From a virus: 38,127 bases of DNA. Of this stretch, positions 7,050-38,127 are shown one piece after another. The stretch lies in IMG/VR virus record IMGVR_UViG_3300011113_000088, positions 1 through 38,127 of that record, one strand, 5' to 3'. Within the stretch, counting starts at the first letter, position 1; each line of letters begins with the position of its first letter. The translations under genes were made by a program, and so were the position numbers. The notes beneath the pieces were generated by a model, which was given only the letters and a program-made list of their open reading frames with translations, did not search any database and was not told the DNA's origin.

Positions 7050-8309
7050 TCAGAATCCTGCCGTAATATCAAGCGGTTCCCACTCATCTTCTTCGTAGTC
7101 AGCGTTGTAGTTAGCGATAGCCAGTTGATCAATGTAACTTAAAGCATCTACCAAGTCATCGTGTACGCCAGCTGTGGGAAACATGATTAACTGATCTCTG
7201 AACTCACTCCAGTCCTCTTGGTCATTGAAGGTAACTCTTCCATGCTCCATCCGACCTTGTAAGCTCCAGACAACCCTGTCAATCTTCTTCTTGTTACCGT
7301 GAGTTAAATCCTGAATGTGAGCGTAGATGTTATTCTTTCTCATCAGGTCATTCAGATATGGCAGTACTGCATTCTTCAGTGCACCTCTCTCAATACCTAC
7401 AGCTGTTGGTTGATAGTCTCTAACGACTTTCAAGATGTTAACAGCTGTCTCTCTGATATCCCACCTACCATGCTGGATCTTATCTACCCACCAGTTACCG
7501 TTATCCTCTAACTTAACAACTGCAATAGCTGTCTCATCTAGTCTCTTCTTAGAGGCACTGGCATTCTTACCAACTTCCTCAAAACCTGCTAAGTCAATCG
7601 CTACAATGTAACTACCGTACTGAGGCTCCTCAGCTAACTTAAACCATTCCTCTTTGAAGACATCAGCACCTGAGGTATCAAAGCTAGACAAATATTCCTG
7701 CTTGAAGGCAAAGGAGCTTAGTGTACGCTTTGCAGCCTCAATCTCCTTAGGATCTATCGTCTCATTGTCCTGAGTTGTGAAGTGCCATGACTTCCACTCT
7801 TCATCCTGTTCATCCTGTCCTAAGTTGAAGGTATCGTAGAACCAATTACGACCACTAGGTGTACTGATGAATAAAGCTCTACCCTTCTTATCTGACAGAG
7901 AAGCTCGGATGATCTTCTGCCATACATCCTCTTTAACGAAGGCACACTCATCTAAAACTACGTAAATTAAGGAAACACCCCGCAGAGAATCGGGATTGTC
8001 AGCTCCTCTAACTAAGATCTTCTTACCATTGATAAGGGTTATCTCTAGGTTATTCACATGGCTAGACTTGATTACAGGTCTACCTAGCTCATGCAGTAAG
8101 TCCCACATAATCGTTCTAGCTTGTCCTAATGTAGGCGCTATGTACATCACAGCTGAACCATCTGGACAATTCAATGCTTCAATCAGTAGCGATACAGCTG
8201 AGAGTCTGGACTTACCACACCTTCGACCTGCTGCTACTACTTTAAACCTTGTAGTATCTTTAAAGACACTTTGCTGCCACTTAAGCAGTTGGAAATTCAG
8301 TTGTGTCAT
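7050..8309 (-). CDS. terL: Terminase large subunit (packaging ATPase and nuclease)
   Basis: This 419-residue motor protein pumps DNA into the procapsid and cuts it. The N-terminal ATPase has Walker A AAGRRCGKS (about residues 26-34) and Walker B YVVLDECA (Asp120, Glu121), followed by a coupling motif FISTPSG (about 148). The C-terminal RNase H-fold nuclease has VAIDLAGF (Asp239), GIERGA (Glu307) and VHDDLVDAL (Asp384/Asp388), all expected acidic residues. The length is in the short range for the family. It overlaps the small subunit gene by ATGA. Confidence 0.95.
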   Translation of the reverse strand: MTQLNFQLLKWQQSVFKDTTRFKVVAAGRRCGKSRLSAVSLLIEALNCPDGSAVMYIAPTLGQARTIMWDLLHELGRPVIKSSHVNNLEITLINGKKILVRGADNPDSLRGVSLIYVVLDECAFVKEDVWQKIIRASLSDKKGRALFISTPSGRNWFYDTFNLGQDEQDEEWKSWHFTTQDNETIDPKEIEAAKRTLSSFAFKQEYLSSFDTSGADVFKEEWFKLAEEPQYGSYIVAIDLAGFEEVGKNASASKKRLDETAIAVVKLEDNGNWWVDKIQHGRWDIRETAVNILKVVRDYQPTAVGIERGALKNAVLPYLNDLMRKNNIYAHIQDLTHGNKKKIDRVVWSLQGRMEHGRVTFNDQEDWSEFRDQLIMFPTAGVHDDLVDALSYIDQLAIANYNADYEEDEWEPLDITAGF

Positions 8310-8680: not shown

Positions 8681-8719
8681 GTGCTCGTCTTTGTCCTATA
8701 TAAGGAGACTTTAAAGTGG

Positions 8720-8735
8720 AGTACTATATAGTACT
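8720..8735. promoter_or_regulatory. 16-bp perfect palindrome in AT-rich tract
   Basis: AGTACTATATAGTACT is a perfect inverted repeat. It lies 12 bp from a second palindrome, ACTTTAAAGT (8708-8717), and 38 bp from TATAAGTACTTATA (8774-8787). All lie in the late leader between the promoter and the terminase start. They look like operator half-sites or DNA-unwinding elements. No protein partner can be named. Confidence 0.5.
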
Positions 8736-8838
8736 AAGACATATTAACATAAATGTTACATAGACATAAATATTATAAGTACTTATATAAGTAATCTATT
8801 AATAGTTAACTTATAAAGTAATATATTATAAGTAACTG

Positions 8839-8863
8839 TTAATAGTGTATTTAACTTCTATGT
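8839..8863 (-). repeat. 25-bp element shared with 13265-13289 (inverted copy)
   Basis: This 25-base sequence is the exact reverse complement of 13265-13289. In both places it points toward a downstream gene: terminase on the minus strand here, the gene at 13381 on the plus strand there. Both neighbourhoods also share ACTTTAAAGT, ACTTATAAAGT and GTTACATAGA. Exact conservation in non-coding DNA suggests a functional cis element. Confidence 0.8.
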
Positions 8864-8902
8864 TCCCCTACTAGGGTGTACGGAATAGCCTTAGAAGTCA
8901 AC

Positions 8903-8928
8903 CTAAGAAGTGGGGTCAGGCTTCTTAG
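8903..8928 (-). promoter_or_regulatory. Hairpin in late mRNA leader
   Basis: CTAAGAAG (8903-8910) and CTTCTTAG (8921-8928) form a perfect 8-bp stem with a 10-nt loop. It would begin about 20 nt after the predicted start of the late transcript. There is no T-tract, so it is probably a stability or regulatory structure or an operator rather than a terminator. Confidence 0.55.
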
Positions 8929-8955
8929 TAAACACAATTATTTCCTATGAAGAAT

Positions 8956-8984
8956 ATTATACACTATGTTTGTCTATTTGTCAA
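8956..8984 (-). promoter_or_regulatory. Perfect consensus sigma-70 promoter for late leftward genes
   Basis: On the minus strand the sequence is TTGACA (8979-8984), a spacer of exactly 17 nt, then TATAAT (8956-8961). All 12 consensus bases match. Transcription would start near 8949 and run into terminase after a leader of about 270 nt. A full consensus on a late operon is unexpected unless it is repressed early, and the palindromes in the leader are candidate operators. Confidence 0.92.
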
Positions 8985-9169
8985 GTCTTTTCTACGTTTT
9001 ACTGTTATTTATTTTTACTTTTACTTCACTTTAGAGTCTACACTCTAATTTATTAGGTACTTTAAAGTCACTTTGTAGTTCCCCGTTCCTAGGTTGTCCG
9101 TCTGACCCTTATTTGCATAACTTTATTATGTTAATCAAATACTTACCTCTAATGTCTGTCAAGGTCTAT

Positions 9170-9197
9170 TTTACCTTTTTTGTAAGCTTTGTATACT
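9170..9197 (+). promoter_or_regulatory. Candidate plus-strand promoter
   Basis: TTTACC (9170-9175), 16 nt, then TATACT (9192-9197) match the sigma-70 consensus at nine of 12 positions. It would direct transcription through the iteron and DnaA-box region toward the first early gene. Transcription across an origin could serve in priming or melting. The evidence is only sequence similarity. Confidence 0.35.
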
Positions 9198-9280
9198 CTT
9201 TTTTGTGTACTTTGTAGGCTCCCACAAAAGTAATCACTAAGCAGTCACCCCTCCCCCCTATGAAGTCAGCGTTAGCGTTA

Positions 9281-9349
9281 GCACTCACTTACATTGTAGT
9301 CACTCTGAAGTCTAAGTTAGTAAGCACTCACTTCGCAGTCACTCTGAAG
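9281..9349 (+). repeat. Iteron-like direct repeats
   Basis: A composite unit occurs twice: GCACTCACTT (9281-9290 and 9324-9333), each followed by AGTCACTCTGAAG (9298-9310 and 9337-9349). A third partial copy, TACTCTGAAG, is at 9382-9391. Spacing between units is 39-43 bp, about four helical turns. Such repeats next to DnaA boxes resemble initiator-binding iterons of plasmid and phage origins. Confidence 0.6.
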
Positions 9350-9360
9350 CTAAACGCTAA

Positions 9361-9375
9361 TGAGAATCATTCTCA
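9361..9375. promoter_or_regulatory. Fur-box-like 7-1-7 dyad
   Basis: TGAGAATCATTCTCA is a perfect inverted repeat around a central C. It differs from the 7-1-7 Fur consensus TGATAATNATTATCA by one base in each half. It lies between the iterons and the 21-bp repeats. It could be bound by host Fur or by an unrelated dimeric repressor. Confidence 0.5.
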
Positions 9376-9392
9376 ATTAGGTACTCTGAAGG

Positions 9393-9436
9393 TACACTGT
9401 CGGAAACTTGACAGTTACACTGTCGGAAAGTTGACA
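9393..9436 (+). repeat. Tandem 21-bp direct repeats ending in TTGACA
   Basis: Positions 9393-9413 and 9416-9436 are two copies of a 21-bp sequence (TACACTGTCGGAAA, C or G, then TTGACA) with one mismatch and a 23-bp period. Both end in a perfect -35 hexamer, but neither has a good -10 at 16-18 bp; TATAAA at 9458-9463 is 21 bp from the second. They are better explained as tandem binding sites covering a promoter or origin. Confidence 0.65.
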
Positions 9437-9513
9437 TGTGAGGGACGTTGCGGGACCTATAAAGGCATACTAGGGTTAACCCTTAGAGATACTGGGCAGG
9501 GTATCTGATAAAG

Positions 9514-9633
9514 TTATTCACAAGTTATCCACAGGGTGTGGATAAAGTACTCCTAGGGGTATACAGTTATACACAGGTTAAGTCTTATATAAGAGTTACA
9601 TTTGTGGATAAGTATAACTACTGGTGTGGATAA
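9514..9633. other. Cluster of six DnaA boxes: probable replication origin
   Basis: Six 9-mers match the DnaA consensus TTATNCACA. The plus-oriented ones are TTATTCACA (9514-9522), TTATCCACA (9525-9533) and TTATACACA (9567-9575). The minus-oriented ones, read TGTGGATAA, are at 9537-9545, 9603-9611 and 9625-9633. Four of the six are the strong TTATCCACA form. They span only 120 bp, with a CTTATATAAG palindrome (9584-9593) between them. This density is typical of bacterial oriC or plasmid origins and implies recruitment of host DnaA. Confidence 0.82.
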
Positions 9634-9738
9634 CATTTTCTAAGGGGTAGATAAGCAAAACTGAAATAATCGCTCCTAGGGCTTCTAATCGCTTCGACAC
9701 CTAAAAAGCATTAGGGTTTATACGTAAGGGTTTAAACT

Positions 9739-9766
9739 TTGAAAATAATTGTCTAAACCATATGTT
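9739..9766 (+). promoter_or_regulatory. Candidate early promoter
   Basis: TTGAAA (9739-9744), 16 nt, then TATGTT (9761-9766) lies about 80 bp upstream of the first early gene on the plus strand. The match to sigma-70 consensus is nine of 12. Two AGGGTTTA repeats (9712-9719, 9727-9734) lie just upstream. It is the best-placed early promoter candidate, but the strength is uncertain. Confidence 0.4.
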
Positions 9767-9850
9767 TGTAAGTTTCGTGTAAGGAAAGCTTGAGATACTA
9801 CACACATGGAAGGCAAGGAGCTGACCAGTTAACTAATAGGAGATCACAGT

Positions 9851-13634: not shown

Positions 13635-13876
13635 TGGACATTGACCCAAACAAACCGTGGCCCTTCCCTTCTGTACCTTTGGGAGGTGATAGTAGCTTGA
13701 AAGCTTTGGCTGATACTTTATCGATGCTGGAGGATTTCACAGCTTTTCAGCTCAGAGGGGACATCTACTATGGATACCCCGATAAAAAGGCTCTAAAGAC
13801 CATTGAAGGCCTTAGAAACACCCTTGGACAGGGTAAGACTATCAACGAAGTATATGGAGGTGGTAGTGAAGCTTAA
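13634..13876 (+). CDS. Small protein upstream of primase-helicase
   Basis: This 80-residue protein starts MDIDPNKPWPFPSVPLGGDS. It is mostly helical with a Pro-rich start, and no domain is recognised. It overlaps the primase-helicase start by about 11 bases, with the ribosome site for that gene inside its 3' end. Function is unknown. Confidence 0.6.
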   Translation: MDIDPNKPWPFPSVPLGGDSSLKALADTLSMLEDFTAFQLRGDIYYGYPDKKALKTIEGLRNTLGQGKTINEVYGGGSEA

Positions 13877-15494
13877 CCTAGTACCTAAGCCTAAGACACC
13901 TTCAAAGTTCATCCGTCATGTTCCATGTGAGCACTGCGGTAGTTCAGATGCAGGTGCTGAATATGACGATGGACACTTCTACTGTTTCAATTGTCATCAC
14001 ACTGAGCATGAGACAGATGCTTGTAACTTATCGGTCATGCAACAGGCTGTAGCGCCTAGGAAAACACCTATGTTAGAAGTTAAAGGACAGATTAAAGCGA
14101 TACCTGACAGGGGTATCAGTCAACAAACATGTGAGAAATACGGAGTTACTCAAGACAATGGACAACACTTTTATCCTTACACTGACGATGCCGGAGGGGT
14201 TGTCGCAGCAAAAGTTAGACGAGTGGCAGACAAAACTTTTAGCATTCATGGTTCATTCACGAATGCTAGGTTGTTCGGTCAACAGCTCTTTCACGCAGGG
14301 GGCAAGTACATCACGATCTATGAAGGTGAACTTGATGCCTTGGCAGGATACCAACTCACAGGGTCTCAGTGGCCCTCAGTGTCGATTAGGAATGGTGCTC
14401 AAGCCGCTTTAAAGGACTGCAAAGCTCAGTATGAGTGGCTGAACACCTTTGAGAACATTGTGATCTGCTTCGATGGGGATGAGCCGGGTAAGAAGGCCTC
14501 TAAAGAGGTAGCTGAGCTATTCGGGCAGAAGGCTAAGATCGTTAAGCATTTGAGTGGCTACAAAGATGCTTGTGACTATCTCATTGCTGGCGCTACCAAA
14601 GAGTTCGTCAATGAGTGGTGGAGAGCTGAGGTGTACATACCTGACGGGATCATCAATGCAGCATCTCTGTGGGAGGAAGTGATTAAACCTGAGGCTAAGG
14701 CTGAGGCTATGTACCCTTGGAAGGGCTTAAATAAGCTGTTGTACGGATTGAGACCTTCGGAGTTGATCACAGTCACAGCTGGTTCAGGCCTTGGTAAGAG
14801 TCAGTTCTTGAGAGAGATATTGTTCAACATTCTGAACACTACGAAGTGGAACATTGGAGGGTTATTCCTCGAAGAATCCACTAGAAAGACAGCTAGAAGT
14901 ATCATGTCTTTACACGCTAACAAGCTGTTGCATTTGCCTGACACACCAACAACTGAAGAGGAACTTAAAGATGCATTTGATAACACTCTTGGATCTAATC
15001 GCATTTACCTTTTCGATCATTTCGGTAGCTCTGATGTGGATAATATTACTAACAGAATACGGTACATGGCAAAAGCGTGTGACTGTCGTGTGGTTTTTCT
15101 CGACCATATCTCTATCGTGGTTAGTGGGCAGGATCTTGGAGATGAGCGTAAGGCTATTGATAACATGATGACGAAGCTTCGTACACTGGTTCAAGAGTTG
15201 GAGATTACTCTGATCTGTGTAAGTCACCTTCGTAGGCCTACAGGCAATGCTGGGCACGAGGATGGACAAGCTGTATCGTTGTCTCAGCTCAGAGGATCAG
15301 GTGCTATTGCTCAGCTCAGTGACGCTGTGATCACATTGGAGCGTAACAGCATGGCTCAGGATGACAACGAGAGACACCAGACTAAGGTATCAGTGGCTAA
15401 AAATCGTTACAATGGCTATACAGGTCCAGCATGTACTTTGAAGTACGACATGGAAACTGGACGTATGATGGAGATGCAGGAGGAAGTATTATGA
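13866..15494 (+). CDS. DNA primase-helicase (T7 gp4-like)
   Basis: This bifunctional protein synthesises RNA primers and unwinds DNA at the phage fork. In about 542 residues it has an N-terminal zinc-binding domain (Cys21, Cys24, Cys40, Cys43), a TOPRIM primase core (YEGELDAL at Glu153/Asp157, FDGDEPG at Asp203/Asp205), and a RecA-like helicase with Walker A AGSGLGKS (Lys311) and Walker B VVFLDH (Asp413). LRGSG at about 475 is the nucleotide-sensing segment. I favour GTG at 13866 because GGAGG lies five bases upstream; ATG at 13854 adds four residues. It would form a hexamer and work with the family A polymerase downstream. Confidence 0.95.
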   Translation: MKLNLVPKPKTPSKFIRHVPCEHCGSSDAGAEYDDGHFYCFNCHHTEHETDACNLSVMQQAVAPRKTPMLEVKGQIKAIPDRGISQQTCEKYGVTQDNGQHFYPYTDDAGGVVAAKVRRVADKTFSIHGSFTNARLFGQQLFHAGGKYITIYEGELDALAGYQLTGSQWPSVSIRNGAQAALKDCKAQYEWLNTFENIVICFDGDEPGKKASKEVAELFGQKAKIVKHLSGYKDACDYLIAGATKEFVNEWWRAEVYIPDGIINAASLWEEVIKPEAKAEAMYPWKGLNKLLYGLRPSELITVTAGSGLGKSQFLREILFNILNTTKWNIGGLFLEESTRKTARSIMSLHANKLLHLPDTPTTEEELKDAFDNTLGSNRIYLFDHFGSSDVDNITNRIRYMAKACDCRVVFLDHISIVVSGQDLGDERKAIDNMMTKLRTLVQELEITLICVSHLRRPTGNAGHEDGQAVSLSQLRGSGAIAQLSDAVITLERNSMAQDDNERHQTKVSVAKNRYNGYTGPACTLKYDMETGRMMEMQEEVL

Positions 15495-17193: not shown

Positions 17194-17372
17194 TTGACAT
17201 GGACAAGATAGCTGGTAGAATGCTTGACTTGGAGAGTAAGTACTATGAGTTGCAAGACAAGTATCAATTACTTATCCATCACTATGAAGACTTGAAAGCT
17301 GAATATGAAGCGTATCGTTCTAGACATAGAGACAACATTAGATCACAACACGATCTGGATGGTGGTCACTAA
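17190..17372 (+). CDS. Small coiled-coil protein overlapping the polymerase start
   Basis: This is a 60-residue protein with clear heptad spacing (MLDLESKYYELQDKYQLLIH, then HYEDLKAEYEAY). It begins in ATGA overlap with the preceding gene. Its last 68 bases are read in a different frame as the first codons of DNA polymerase, an unusually long overlap. It could be a polymerase-associated factor or a translational-coupling leader. Function is unknown. Confidence 0.6.
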   Translation: MIDMDKIAGRMLDLESKYYELQDKYQLLIHHYEDLKAEYEAYRSRHRDNIRSQHDLDGGH

Positions 17373-19005
17373 GGACATCGACACTGGAGAAGTTAAGGTA
17401 TGGAGAGCAGCAGACAACCTCGTGGGGTATTTAAAGGACGTTACGTTGATAGTAGCCCACAACGGGATAGGCTTCGATTTTCCGATACTCAATCGGCTCT
17501 GGACTACGAAGATTCGCTTGAGCCAAGTGTACGATACGTTGATAGCGTCAAGACTGCTAGATCCCTCAATAGAGAACGGACACAGCTTAGACGCTTGGGG
17601 AGAGAGACTCAAGAGGAGTAAGATTAACTATACAGGGGTGTGGACATGGTTGATGAACAGACGAGAGGAATACAAAGGTGAGTGCTTTAATGTTCCTCAC
17701 ATGGCTCTTCTTGAGCATTACTGCATTAGGGACGTTGAGGTTACTTGTGATCTTTACAAGCACCTTACTGCTGAATTCACTAAGAAGGACTTTTCACAAG
17801 AAAGTCTTACTTTGGAACACAAGGTGGCTGCGATTATTGCCGAACAAGAAAGGTCAGGATTCAAACTTGATTTACCCTTCACAACTTGCTTACTTGCTGA
17901 CATCAAAGGAAAGATGGCAGGAATATATGAATCGATGCAACAGAGATGGCCTCCAGTCATCACTCCAAGATTCCACAAAACCAGTGGAAAGCCTATCAAA
18001 GATTCCGTTGATACTTTCAATCCCGGAAGTAGACAACAAATTGGACAGAAGCTGATGGAGCTTGGCTGGAAGCCTAAGGAGTTCACTGAGAAGGGTCAGG
18101 CTATTGTCGATGAATCTGTACTGTCTAAGGTTACTAACATTCCTGAGGCTCAGATGATCGCTGAATACTTGATGCTACAGAAGCGTGTAGCTCAGATTGA
18201 AAGCTGGTTAGAGGCTGTAGGTAAGGACGGTAGAGTTCACGGGAAGGTTATCACGAATGGAGCTGTGTCTGGTAGAGCTACGCATAGCTCACCTAATATG
18301 GCTCAGATTCCAGCTACAAGGTCAACGTATGGTAAAGAATGTAGAAGTTGTTGGACTGTTGAAGAAGGGCACGTGCTTGTTGGTACGGACTTGTCTGGTA
18401 TTGAGCTGCGTTGCTTTGCTCACTATCTTAATGATACTGAATATTCAAATGAGGTTGTAAATGGAGATGTCCACACGAGAAATCAGAAAGCATTTGGAGT
18501 CGATACGAGAGATCTTGCCAAGACTGTGCTGTATGCCACACTCTACGGTGCTTCACCGGGTAAAGTCGGTACAATTATTGGTGGTTCAGAAAAGCAGGGG
18601 AGAAAGATTATTGATAATTTTCAACGGAACGTCCCAGCATACGCAGCGCTTAAAAAGAAAGTATCTAAGTTCGCTGCTAAAGGGTGGATACCGGGTCTTG
18701 ATGGACGTAGACTTCAGATTAGATCTGAGCATAGCGCACTTAATACACTCCTTCAGTCGGCAGGAGCGATTATTGCTAAGCAGTGGATTGTGTGCTTTCA
18801 CGAGGAACTCCGTAAGAAAAAAGTACCATTTAAGCTAGTTGCGTGGGTTCACGATGAGGTACAAATTGAAGTTCCTGAAAAGTATGGTACAATAGTAGGT
18901 GAGATTGTTGTAAAAGCAGCCGCTGATGCAGGAGAGATCTTAAAGTTTAGATGTCCTGTTGGTGCTGAATTCAAGATAGGGAAGAATTGGTATGACTGTC
19001 ACTAA
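17305..19005 (+). CDS. Family A DNA polymerase (T7-like) with 3'-5' exonuclease
   Basis: This 566-residue replicative polymerase is shorter than T7 gp5 (704). The exonuclease has LDIETT (Asp7, Glu9), HNGIGFD (Asp58) and YCIRDVE (Asp143), all four acidic residues intact, so proofreading is expected. The polymerase has motif A GTDLSGIELR (Asp362), motif B TRDLAKTVLYATLYGAS (Arg402, Lys406, Tyr410) and motif C VHDE (His516, Asp517). Tyr410 aligns with T7 Tyr526 (E. coli Phe762), the form associated with fast lytic phages. The T7 thioredoxin-binding loop seems shortened or absent. The start lies inside the preceding gene. Confidence 0.96.
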   Translation: MKRIVLDIETTLDHNTIWMVVTKDIDTGEVKVWRAADNLVGYLKDVTLIVAHNGIGFDFPILNRLWTTKIRLSQVYDTLIASRLLDPSIENGHSLDAWGERLKRSKINYTGVWTWLMNRREEYKGECFNVPHMALLEHYCIRDVEVTCDLYKHLTAEFTKKDFSQESLTLEHKVAAIIAEQERSGFKLDLPFTTCLLADIKGKMAGIYESMQQRWPPVITPRFHKTSGKPIKDSVDTFNPGSRQQIGQKLMELGWKPKEFTEKGQAIVDESVLSKVTNIPEAQMIAEYLMLQKRVAQIESWLEAVGKDGRVHGKVITNGAVSGRATHSSPNMAQIPATRSTYGKECRSCWTVEEGHVLVGTDLSGIELRCFAHYLNDTEYSNEVVNGDVHTRNQKAFGVDTRDLAKTVLYATLYGASPGKVGTIIGGSEKQGRKIIDNFQRNVPAYAALKKKVSKFAAKGWIPGLDGRRLQIRSEHSALNTLLQSAGAIIAKQWIVCFHEELRKKKVPFKLVAWVHDEVQIEVPEKYGTIVGEIVVKAAADAGEILKFRCPVGAEFKIGKNWYDCH

Positions 19006-22876: not shown

Positions 22877-24784
22877 ATGAGTACAACTAAAATGACACCT
22901 TACCAAGAGTATATCGGCAAGAGCCGCTATTCACGATACTTGGATGATAAAGGCCGTAGAGAGCATTGGCCTGAGACTGTCAATCGCTACTTTGACTTCA
23001 TGACCAAGCATTTGAAAGACAAGCATAACTACGACATCCCAGCAGATCTAAAGTCTGAGCTTACATCTGCAGTGACTAACCTTGAAGTGATGCCTTCAAT
23101 GCGTAGTATCATGACAGCTGGTGACGCTCTAGAACGACAGAATGTCGCTGGTTATAACTGTTCATACCTTCCTATTGATGATCCTAAAGCCTTTGATGAG
23201 GCCATGTATATTCTGTTATGCGGAACTGGTGTAGGCTTTAGTGTGGAGCAAAAGTATGTATCTAAGTTACCTGAGATCCCAACTGAGTTGTACAATAGTG
23301 GCACTGTCATTAATGTTAAGGACTCCAAAGAGGGATGGGCTAAAGCCTTACGACAAGTCATTGCCTTGCTATACGCTGGAGAAGTGCCTAAGTGGGATGT
23401 TTCGGGTGTACGTCCAGCAGGGACGAGGCTTAAAACCTTCGGAGGCAGGGCATCAGGACCAGAGCCGCTTGTCGACCTATTCAAGTATGTGGTTGCAAAG
23501 TTCCGTGGAGCGGCTGGACGGAAGCTCACCTCACTTGAGGCACACGATATTCTTTGTAAGGTCGGAGAGGTCGTGGTTGTCGGTGGTGTACGAAGATCGG
23601 CAATGATCTCACTGTCAGACTTGAGTGATGATCGTATGGCTCACGCTAAGGCTGGTAACTGGTGGGATGGTAACGGTCAACGAGCTTTGGCTAACAACAG
23701 TGCCATCTACGAAGTTAAGCCGGAGGTAGGTAAGTTCATGCGTGAGTGGTCCAGTATTTATGAATCACATTCAGGTGAGCGAGGTATCTTTAATCGTTAT
23801 GCAAGTGAACTTCAAGCAGCTAAGAATGGACGTAGGGAACTGGGTAAAGAGTGGGGTACAAACCCTTGCAGTGAGATTATCCTTAGACCTTATCAATTCT
23901 GCAATCTGTCTTCTGTTATTGTTCGGAGCGATGATAGTGTGGATACTCTACGGAATAAGGTGCGCTTGGCTACTATTCTGGGGACTTTTCAATCGACAAT
24001 GACTCACTTCCCGTACCTTCGTAAGGTGTGGCAGACAAACACTGAAGAGGAGCGTTTGTTGGGTGTGTCTATGACTGGTATCTTGGATAATTCTTTGTTG
24101 AATGATCCTGACAATGCTGAACTACCTGCTATCTTAGAAGGAATGAAGAATGTTGCTATTGACACTAACGCTGAGTTTGCTGACGCTATTGGTATTAATC
24201 GAAGTGCTGCCATCACTGCCATTAAGCCAGAGGGCACTGTCTCTCAGCTTACTGGTACTGCTAGCGGCATCCATCCTCAGCATAGTCAGTACTTTATTCG
24301 TCGTGTACGGTCTGATAATAAAGATCCTCTGACTGACTTCTTGAAGTCTCAAGGATTCCCTTCAGAGCCTTGTGTGATGAAGCCTGAGAGTACTACAGTG
24401 TTCAGCTTCCCAATGCGAGTTGAGAAAGGTGCTGTACTGCGTGAAGACTTGAATGCTATTAAGCACTTGCGTCTGTGGCTACTATTCCAGCGTCACTACT
24501 GTGAGCATAAGCCTTCAGTGACTATCTCAGTGAACGAGAATGAGTGGCCTGAAGTTGGAGCTTGGGTGTGGAATAACTTTGATGAGATTACAGGTGTGAG
24601 TTTCTTACCGATGGACGGAGGCACATACAGGCAAGCTCCTTATGAGTCAATGACTGAGTTTGAATATCACGACATGGTGACTAAGATGCCACTGGGTATT
24701 GATTGGGATAGCTTCATTGAACGTACTGACAATGTTGAAGGTGCTCAGCAGCTAGCTTGTGTGGCAGGTGTCTGTGAGATATGA
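22877..24784 (+). CDS. nrdJ: Ribonucleotide reductase, class II, monomeric, B12-dependent
   Basis: This 635-residue enzyme makes deoxynucleotides from ribonucleotides using adenosylcobalamin, so it needs host B12 but no oxygen. It matches the monomeric Lactobacillus leichmannii RTPR type: NPCSEI with radical Cys331 and Glu333 plus Asn329, redox Cys95 (GYNCSY) and Cys342 (QFCNLS), 11 residues after Cys331 as in the family. The C-terminal swinging pair is Cys628/Cys633 (ACVAGVCEI). It starts MSTTKMTPYQEYIGKSRYSR, and RTPR-like motifs AGTRLKTFGG and VGGVRRSA are present. It would supply dNTPs for the phage polymerase. Confidence 0.94.
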   Translation: MSTTKMTPYQEYIGKSRYSRYLDDKGRREHWPETVNRYFDFMTKHLKDKHNYDIPADLKSELTSAVTNLEVMPSMRSIMTAGDALERQNVAGYNCSYLPIDDPKAFDEAMYILLCGTGVGFSVEQKYVSKLPEIPTELYNSGTVINVKDSKEGWAKALRQVIALLYAGEVPKWDVSGVRPAGTRLKTFGGRASGPEPLVDLFKYVVAKFRGAAGRKLTSLEAHDILCKVGEVVVVGGVRRSAMISLSDLSDDRMAHAKAGNWWDGNGQRALANNSAIYEVKPEVGKFMREWSSIYESHSGERGIFNRYASELQAAKNGRRELGKEWGTNPCSEIILRPYQFCNLSSVIVRSDDSVDTLRNKVRLATILGTFQSTMTHFPYLRKVWQTNTEEERLLGVSMTGILDNSLLNDPDNAELPAILEGMKNVAIDTNAEFADAIGINRSAAITAIKPEGTVSQLTGTASGIHPQHSQYFIRRVRSDNKDPLTDFLKSQGFPSEPCVMKPESTTVFSFPMRVEKGAVLREDLNAIKHLRLWLLFQRHYCEHKPSVTISVNENEWPEVGAWVWNNFDEITGVSFLPMDGGTYRQAPYESMTEFEYHDMVTKMPLGIDWDSFIERTDNVEGAQQLACVAGVCEI

Positions 24785-37314: not shown

Positions 37315-38127
37315 TTAAGCTCCATACTGAGAGTTGTACCAGTTAGCTAAAGGTGTAGCGACATCCTTAGGCATAGCTGGCATCAAAGTGTTATAGTTCT
37401 GCTGAATAGCGTTGAAGTAGTCTTGACTGTTAAGTGGAACACCCTGTGTAGGTAAAGCTCCAACACCCATTGAAGAGCCTCCACCGCCACCTGATAAAGC
37501 CCTACCAGCACCTGCAGCTCCAAATAAACCTACAACACCTTTTAAGATGTTAGCTAGTTGAGAAGGTGTTAAGCTGCTTAAAGGGTTAGTACTTGCTGCA
37601 GGAGGAGTAGCTGGAGGTACTTTCGTAGTAGGGGCTTCAATACCTGTGTTAATGCTAGCTAGTTCAGTTCCAAGGCCGGAACCAATATTAGTAGCTGTAT
37701 TAATACCTGTTTCACCAAGTGTTGACAGTAAACCCGCAGTTGGAATTAATGCAGACTCAGTTACCAATCCTGAAGGAGTCTGATATGTTAATCCTTGAGC
37801 ACCACCCATTTCAGGCATGTATGCAGGATTAATTCCTCCAAAGTTAGCTAAAGCTTCGGCTAAAGTTGTAGATGGAGCACCTACATTAATAGTTAATCCT
37901 TGAGCACCACCCATGTTTTCAAGATTAGCTGATGTCCCCGGCTGTATTCCCTGAGCGCCTCCCATATCAGTTAATGGCCTCATTGTAGTACCATTAGCTA
38001 ACGAATAATCAATCCCTAGATCAATTGGAGTTTGTACTGGAGTTGCTGCAGGAGCAGTCACAACCATTTCAGGAATTTCAGCCTCAATTGGAACAGCAGG
38101 TTGAGTAACATTTGTTGAAAGTAGCGC
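37315..38127 (-). CDS. Large Gly/Ala-rich virion protein, C-terminal part (gene starts at 1159 after closure)
   Basis: This is the 3' part of the 614-residue gene that begins at position 1159; the 127 bases at 38001-38127 duplicate 1-127. It includes three MGGAQGI/MGGAQGL repeats (about residues 401-470 of the full protein), a Thr/Ala/Pro linker and a Gly-rich segment (AGRALSGGGGGSSMGV). The end is SQDYFNAIQQNYNTLMP... NWYNSQYGA. A start at 38067 seen in the linear contig is an internal Met (residue 365), not the true start. The gene is most likely a tail or ejection structural protein. Confidence 0.8.
   Translation of the reverse strand, partial: ALLSTNVTQPAVPIEAEIPEMVVTAPAATPVQTPIDLGIDYSLANGTTMRPLTDMGGAQGIQPGTSANLENMGGAQGLTINVGAPSTTLAEALANFGGINPAYMPEMGGAQGLTYQTPSGLVTESALIPTAGLLSTLGETGINTATNIGSGLGTELASINTGIEAPTTKVPPATPPAASTNPLSSLTPSQLANILKGVVGLFGAAGAGRALSGGGGGSSMGVGALPTQGVPLNSQDYFNAIQQNYNTLMPAMPKDVATPLANWYNSQYGA
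38001..38127. repeat. Terminal direct repeat, right copy
   Basis: These bases equal positions 1-127 exactly. See the left copy. For a circular record, remove one copy so that the interrupted virion gene becomes continuous. Confidence 0.93.

Follow-up and report, generated by a model that had tools for sequence, protein, structure and literature searches.

The window, that is the whole stretch of DNA analysed here, comprises the complete IMG/VR record IMGVR_UViG_3300011113_000088 of 38,127 bases. Its first 127 bp recur at its end (1-127 and 38001-38127) and lie inside a gene; the window therefore most likely represents a complete, circularised assembly of roughly 38.0 kb, in which the repeat probably represents the assembly overlap of a circular map and not a physical genome end. 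According to the ORF map, the structural and terminase genes are oriented leftward and the early and replication genes rightward, both groups diverging from a gap of 1.17 kb and converging at about 25 kb. The map also confirmed the statement of the initial annotation that this gap is the only large non-coding one in the genome. The relevant features are compiled in Table 1. The window additionally encodes a ribonucleotide reductase (22877-24784) that seems to belong to the B12-dependent class (class II).

The genes for a gp4-like primase-helicase and a family A DNA polymerase, which together characterize a T7-type replisome, are both present and are complemented by genes for a 5'-3' exonuclease and endonuclease I, so that the replisome had been correctly recognized as T7-like. 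The RNA polymerase gene was rightly described as missing as well, since PF00940 was not found in the window record; the window phage accordingly does not possess the gene on which a T7-type, RNA-polymerase-primed origin depends. Among ten early proteins tested, none was recognised by PHROGs as a Rep protein. To our knowledge, the start of replication in phages that combine a T7-like replisome with the absence of an RNA polymerase is an open question.

Table 1. Features of the window in the DnaA-box region and among the replication and terminase genes
Feature	Position	Strand	Remarks
Terminase large subunit	7050..8309	-	used for the tree of relatives
Only large non-coding gap	8681..9850	.	between leftward terS/terL operon and rightward early operon; from ORF map and sequence
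Least stable 50-mer of the genome	8782..8831	.	45 kcal/mol (mean 65); in AT-rich palindromic repeats ATATTATAAGTACTTATATAAGTA (8771-8834), upstream of terS
Perfect sigma70 promoter, TTGACA-17-TATAAT	8956..8984	-	for leftward terminase operon
DnaA box 1, TTATTCACA	9514..9522	+	position 5 variable in homologues, other positions 0.90-1.00
DnaA box 2, TTATCCACA	9525..9533	+	2 bp past box 1; frequently degenerate in relatives
DnaA box 3, TTATCCACA	9537..9545	-	opposes box 2 over 3 bp; no variation where present
Core common to unrelated phages	9561..9647	+	84.7% with Limnohabitans phage DC31, 74.7% with Curvibacter phage P26059A
DnaA box 4, TTATACACA	9567..9575	+	position 5 is A or G in relatives
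AT-rich palindrome TCTTATATAAGA	9583..9594	.	invariant; between boxes 4 and 5; repeated in box-free type C2 arrays
DnaA box 5, TTATCCACA	9603..9611	-	almost no variation
DnaA box 6, TTATCCACA	9625..9633	-	22 bp past box 5; found in fewer than half of the relatives
Conserved element TTTGTAAG-N-CGTGTAAG	9765..9783	+	putative early promoter element upstream of first early gene; restricted to types A and C2
T7 gp4-like primase-helicase	13803..15494	+	phrog_239, E 5.9e-187
Family A DNA polymerase (PolA)	17305..19005	+	part of T7-type replisome

Within the gap, six TTATNCACA boxes were verified in 120 bp (9514-9633), four of them exact and two near copies of the DnaA box as originally reported. They are arranged in the order + + - + - -, with start-to-start distances of 11, 12, 30, 36 and 22. 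The whole window contains 8 matches to TTATNCACA compared with 1.9 expected from dinucleotide shuffles, none of the 100 shuffles reaching 8. Moreover, the largest cluster in any 120 bp did not exceed two boxes, either among 300 genomes simulated by an order-2 Markov model or when the AT-rich gap alone was simulated 5000 times. The array is thus a DnaA-box cluster beyond chance, as expected of an oriC-type site, and its density is as improbable at random as had been claimed. The initial annotation had proposed a hybrid initiation, in which host DnaA is recruited to this site and the gp4-like primase-helicase of the phage is then loaded. Just left of the array, a tandem 23-bp repeat CACTGTCGGAAA(C/G)TTGAC is located at 9390-9435, and relatives show similar GTGTCGGAA-TTGACA pairs.

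Relatives were gathered via the terminase (86-95% protein identity) and via gp4, and 31 distinct type-A arrays, i.e. homologues of the array in the window, were aligned. In box 1, position 5 is occupied by A, C, G and T in 7, 7, 5 and 7 arrays, respectively, with a conservation of 90-100% at the other eight positions; box 4 likewise varies mainly at position 5, and boxes 3 and 5 hardly deviate from TTATCCACA. The mean conservation was 0.96 inside the boxes (position 5 excluded) versus 0.76 outside. This substitution pattern reproduces the TTATNCACA specificity of DnaA itself and is therefore most simply explained by selection on DnaA binding. By the standard of their evolution, the boxes are clearly real DnaA sites and the array is maintained by selection, as required of an oriC-type element.

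Each relative has one of four different arrays at this location. Type A, represented by the window, consists of mixed-direction boxes around the palindrome TCTTATATAAGA, and type B comprises four boxes in a single direction, three of them 19 bp apart. The other two types are box-free: C1 is built from three palindromic iterons CGGCAATATTTGCC with a period of about 21 bp and C2 from arrays of GTCTTATATAAGAC/TAAGACATAAGAG. The terminase tree of 48 phages, the window included, contains 20 members with type A, 15 with B, nine with C2 and four with C1. The prediction that close relatives keep the cluster was therefore borne out in 35 of the 48, about three quarters, and did not apply to the remaining quarter or so with box-free arrays. 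The constant location in the 35 phages, together with the box density and the substitution pattern in the 31 arrays, counts for an origin. The box-free relatives, which have the same replisome, count against it, and their existence implies that DnaA is not obligatory for this replisome.

The array type required 21 changes on the terminase tree compared with 23.4 for shuffled labels, and on this measure it hops freely. One set of identical terminase rows, made up of the two contigs L064 and L065, contains both A and B; homology between these two contigs amounts to 94% through the terminase side and ends at a GTAGGCTCC anchor just left of the array, and in a comparison with L070 it restarts about 2 kb further right. 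The first early genes track the array type: a phrog_21585-like gene occurs in 13 of 22 type-A phages, B and C1 have one early gene in common, and one 290-aa gene is found in seven of eight C2 phages. This last gene, which adjoins the C2 array (L030, L033, L105), starts with MMQIKLFSNSAQKFKALQG and presumably resembles the GP88 family. A co-variation of the array with one initiator gene was also considered and discarded, as none of the tested early genes is a recognised initiator. The homology breakpoints and the link between early genes and array type indicate that a cassette of the array plus about 2 kb of early genes is exchanged. The contigs are metagenomic, and individual exchanges might reflect chimeric assembly, but the pattern is drawn from many of them. 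Judged from these comparisons, the array is an exchangeable module, a point that goes beyond the initial annotation. The joint exchange with early genes would also be expected if the boxes were incidental passengers of a mobile cassette without present function, which we consider very improbable, because conservation extends to eight of the nine box positions, whereas position 5 and the spacers have drifted.

The exchange of the array together with early genes also counts against an origin, since the array may travel with these genes as DNA for their control. In that case it would serve the divergent leader as an operator or enhancer, with DnaA acting as a transcription factor for the early, and perhaps the terminase, genes. 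The position just upstream of the early operon and the linkage and exchange with the first early genes are in accordance with this role. Moreover, a sigma54-like -24/-12 promoter (TGGCAC-N5-TTGC form) follows the array in 31 of 31 full-gap loci of types B and C1 (including L044, L047, L058, L071, L060, L064 and L074) and in no A or C2 locus, which places the B and C1 arrays where an upstream activator site is expected. On the other hand, boxes occur with the promoter element of A and C2 as well as with the sigma54-like element of B, and so do box-free arrays; furthermore, the core is preserved in unrelated phages in which the next gene is hundreds of bp away, and it is reversed in P26059A. The reverse orientation and the presence of boxes with either promoter element make the array separable from any one promoter and count for an origin. 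Transcriptional control by DnaA is an unlikely explanation, albeit the foremost competitor of an origin.

The same core was detected in phages that are unrelated to the window phage by overall genome. A strict core pattern matched 19 viral contigs, and the unrelated carriers of the type-A core, among them some contigs and the isolates DC31 (76 kb) and P26059A (84 kb), span 36-84 kb and are phages of Comamonadaceae and uncultured relatives. In P26059A, the core runs opposite to the neighbouring genes. A gp4-like primase-helicase is encoded in nine of nine large-enough core-bearing records (E <1e-160), two fragments being without it, whereas no DnaA gene was present in 12 core-bearing records tested and no T7-type RNA polymerase was found in any core-bearing record tested. 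This co-occurrence of core and gp4 in unrelated phages devoid of their own DnaA and T7-type RNA polymerase counts for an origin, as does the finding that the T7-like Curvibacter phage P26059B, which shares the host of P26059A and has a T7-type RNA polymerase, contains no box at all and the T7 genome a single TTATNCACA. Conversely, SIO1, HTVC115P and HTVC103P, which have gp4 and no RNA polymerase, exhibit no box cluster, which counts against it.

The DNA stability in the gap can be read in both directions. The DNA inside and to the right of the array is moderately unstable (3-5 percentile), and the genome minimum is situated 700 bp away, a distance that counts against an origin. The stretch at this minimum is nevertheless a possible unwinding element; comparable AT-rich stretches or ATATTATAAGTACTTATATAAGTA-type repeats are present in box-free relatives too. 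In several larger module-bearing phages, AT-rich repeats directly adjoin the boxes, as the unwinding element does in oriC, and this counts in favour.

Dense DnaA-box clusters seem to be common across viral contigs. A triple-box pattern yielded at least 120 loci in IMG/VR viral contigs (L269-L386) compared with nine for the reversed motif. A general gp4 link of triple-box phages was rejected, as a strong gp4 match was obtained in three of 19 large contigs and the link fails beyond type A. For 118 located loci, the neighbours of about 80 were scanned, and the nearest genes are mostly unknown, terminase or anti-restriction genes. That early and terminase genes, and not replication genes, adjoin the loci of this broad sample favours transcriptional control, although such neighbours cannot separate an origin from early control.

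The shared core, as the only indication, suggests that the host of the window phage belongs to the Comamonadaceae. The strict core pattern was absent from 84,980 bacterial and archaeal species genomes and a relaxed pattern from 301 genomes of the Limnohabitans family. A DnaA query, whose matches were the dnaA loci of named Comamonadaceae, showed that in most of these loci dnaA is preceded by one or two consensus boxes, and a same-direction box triplet was found in none of twelve Comamonadaceae genomes. A captured host oriC was rejected, since these searches provided no counterpart arrangement, and the array is accordingly not a recent copy of any host origin that could be found. The genomes of Limnohabitans and Curvibacter contain only about 15-46 TTATNCACA in all and no triplet of this kind. 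A six-box high-affinity array multiplied by phage copy number could serve as a sink that titrates DnaA, or as a switch that shifts its ADP/ATP state in the manner of datA and DARS, stopping or driving host initiation. Boxes 3, 2 and 1 read in reverse indeed have the DARS order (+ - -), with start-to-start distances of 12 and 23 instead of the 14 and 26 of E. coli DARS1 and DARS2. Since titration alone needs neither a fixed layout nor an invariant palindrome, and would leave unexplained why other arrays take this position in relatives, we regard a sink or switch as quite improbable.

The GC-skew switch expected at 9.5 kb proved uninformative. It coincides with gene direction in the window, and in DC31 and P26059A the skew follows gene direction and ignores the module; skew was therefore discarded as evidence for an origin, and its indifference to the module in the two isolates counts against one.

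On balance, the array may be a host-DnaA platform and replication origin, or the control part of an origin, a reading for which the sequence comparisons leave the chances about equal. Because the array is selected and exchanged as a unit, it probably lets the virus start its own replication via host DnaA. Host DnaA would load cooperatively on the six boxes, mainly on the strong boxes 3 and 5, assisted by weaker partner boxes at 2-3 bp spacing, and would distort AT-rich DNA in or beside the array. The single strand thereby exposed would allow assembly of the gp4-like primase-helicase of the phage, and PolA with host or phage accessory proteins would then replicate. The DnaA step would replace the RNA polymerase transcript by which T7 opens its origin. 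At least four modules alternate at this position, of which the array is one. We infer DnaA binding, melting, gp4 loading and origin function as the steps of this scheme. No loading of gp4-type helicases by DnaA is known to us, and this was counted against an origin. Hybrid initiation as initially proposed is the best single reading, evenly poised between right and wrong: selection on the boxes, the T7-like replisome, the lack of both a phage DnaA and a phage RNA polymerase and the co-occurrence with gp4 sustain it, and the box-free relatives and the GC skew weaken it.

A broader and more tentative proposal, which we consider somewhat improbable, is a plug-in initiation, in which a swapped non-coding module would recruit host DnaA (A, B) or another factor (C1, C2), with gp4 and PolA remaining constant. 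These considerations offer a specific answer for one large group of uncultured freshwater phages. The types A, B, C1 and C2 on near-identical backgrounds represent natural swap variants and ready-made controls, and the isolated phages DC31 and P26059A carry the module and are usable at the bench. DC31 infects Limnohabitans sp. DCL3 and has the module at 20.3 kb; P26059A infects Curvibacter IMCC26059 and has it at 72.4 kb.

With respect to known systems, the window phage resembles T7 in its replisome of gp4-like primase-helicase and PolA. Unlike the window phage, T7 opens its primary origin with an RNA polymerase of its own, and its genome contains a single TTATNCACA. DnaA boxes or DnaA control also occur in the replication of the phages and plasmids P1 (oriR), R1 and lambda, which encode a Rep or O protein themselves and rely on the host DnaB. 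The array shares with them the recruitment of host DnaA by a mobile replicon, as proposed here, and differs by the gp4-like helicase-primase and the absence of a PHROGs-recognised Rep among the early proteins tested. R1 is described in PMC5883639 as a plasmid origin with DnaA boxes.

Like E. coli oriC, the array is a non-coding TTATNCACA cluster that combines strong boxes with weak ones spaced by 2-3 bp and has AT-rich DNA nearby. Its outer boxes converge, whereas those of E. coli (R1, R4) diverge, and unlike bacterial oriC regions it has no dnaA neighbour; none of the searched dnaA loci and genomes of Comamonadaceae contains it. In vivo, E. coli DnaA favours paired boxes 2 or 3 bp apart (PMC11317965), a spacing shared by boxes 1-2 and 2-3, but box 3 is inverted. 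A box I opposite to boxes II and III and a closely spaced pair are features in common with E. coli DARS1, DARS2 and datA (PMC5742627); the DARS elements are chromosomal regulators, whereas the phage array is situated at an early-gene leader. The only close precedent retrieved by a PMC literature search is the AT-rich origin with DnaA boxes predicted by Ori-Finder for Pseudomonas phage vB_PseuGesM_254 (PMC11512268). In the accessible part of that source it is a single-phage prediction without a comparative box test, whereas the phage array described here was compared across relatives.
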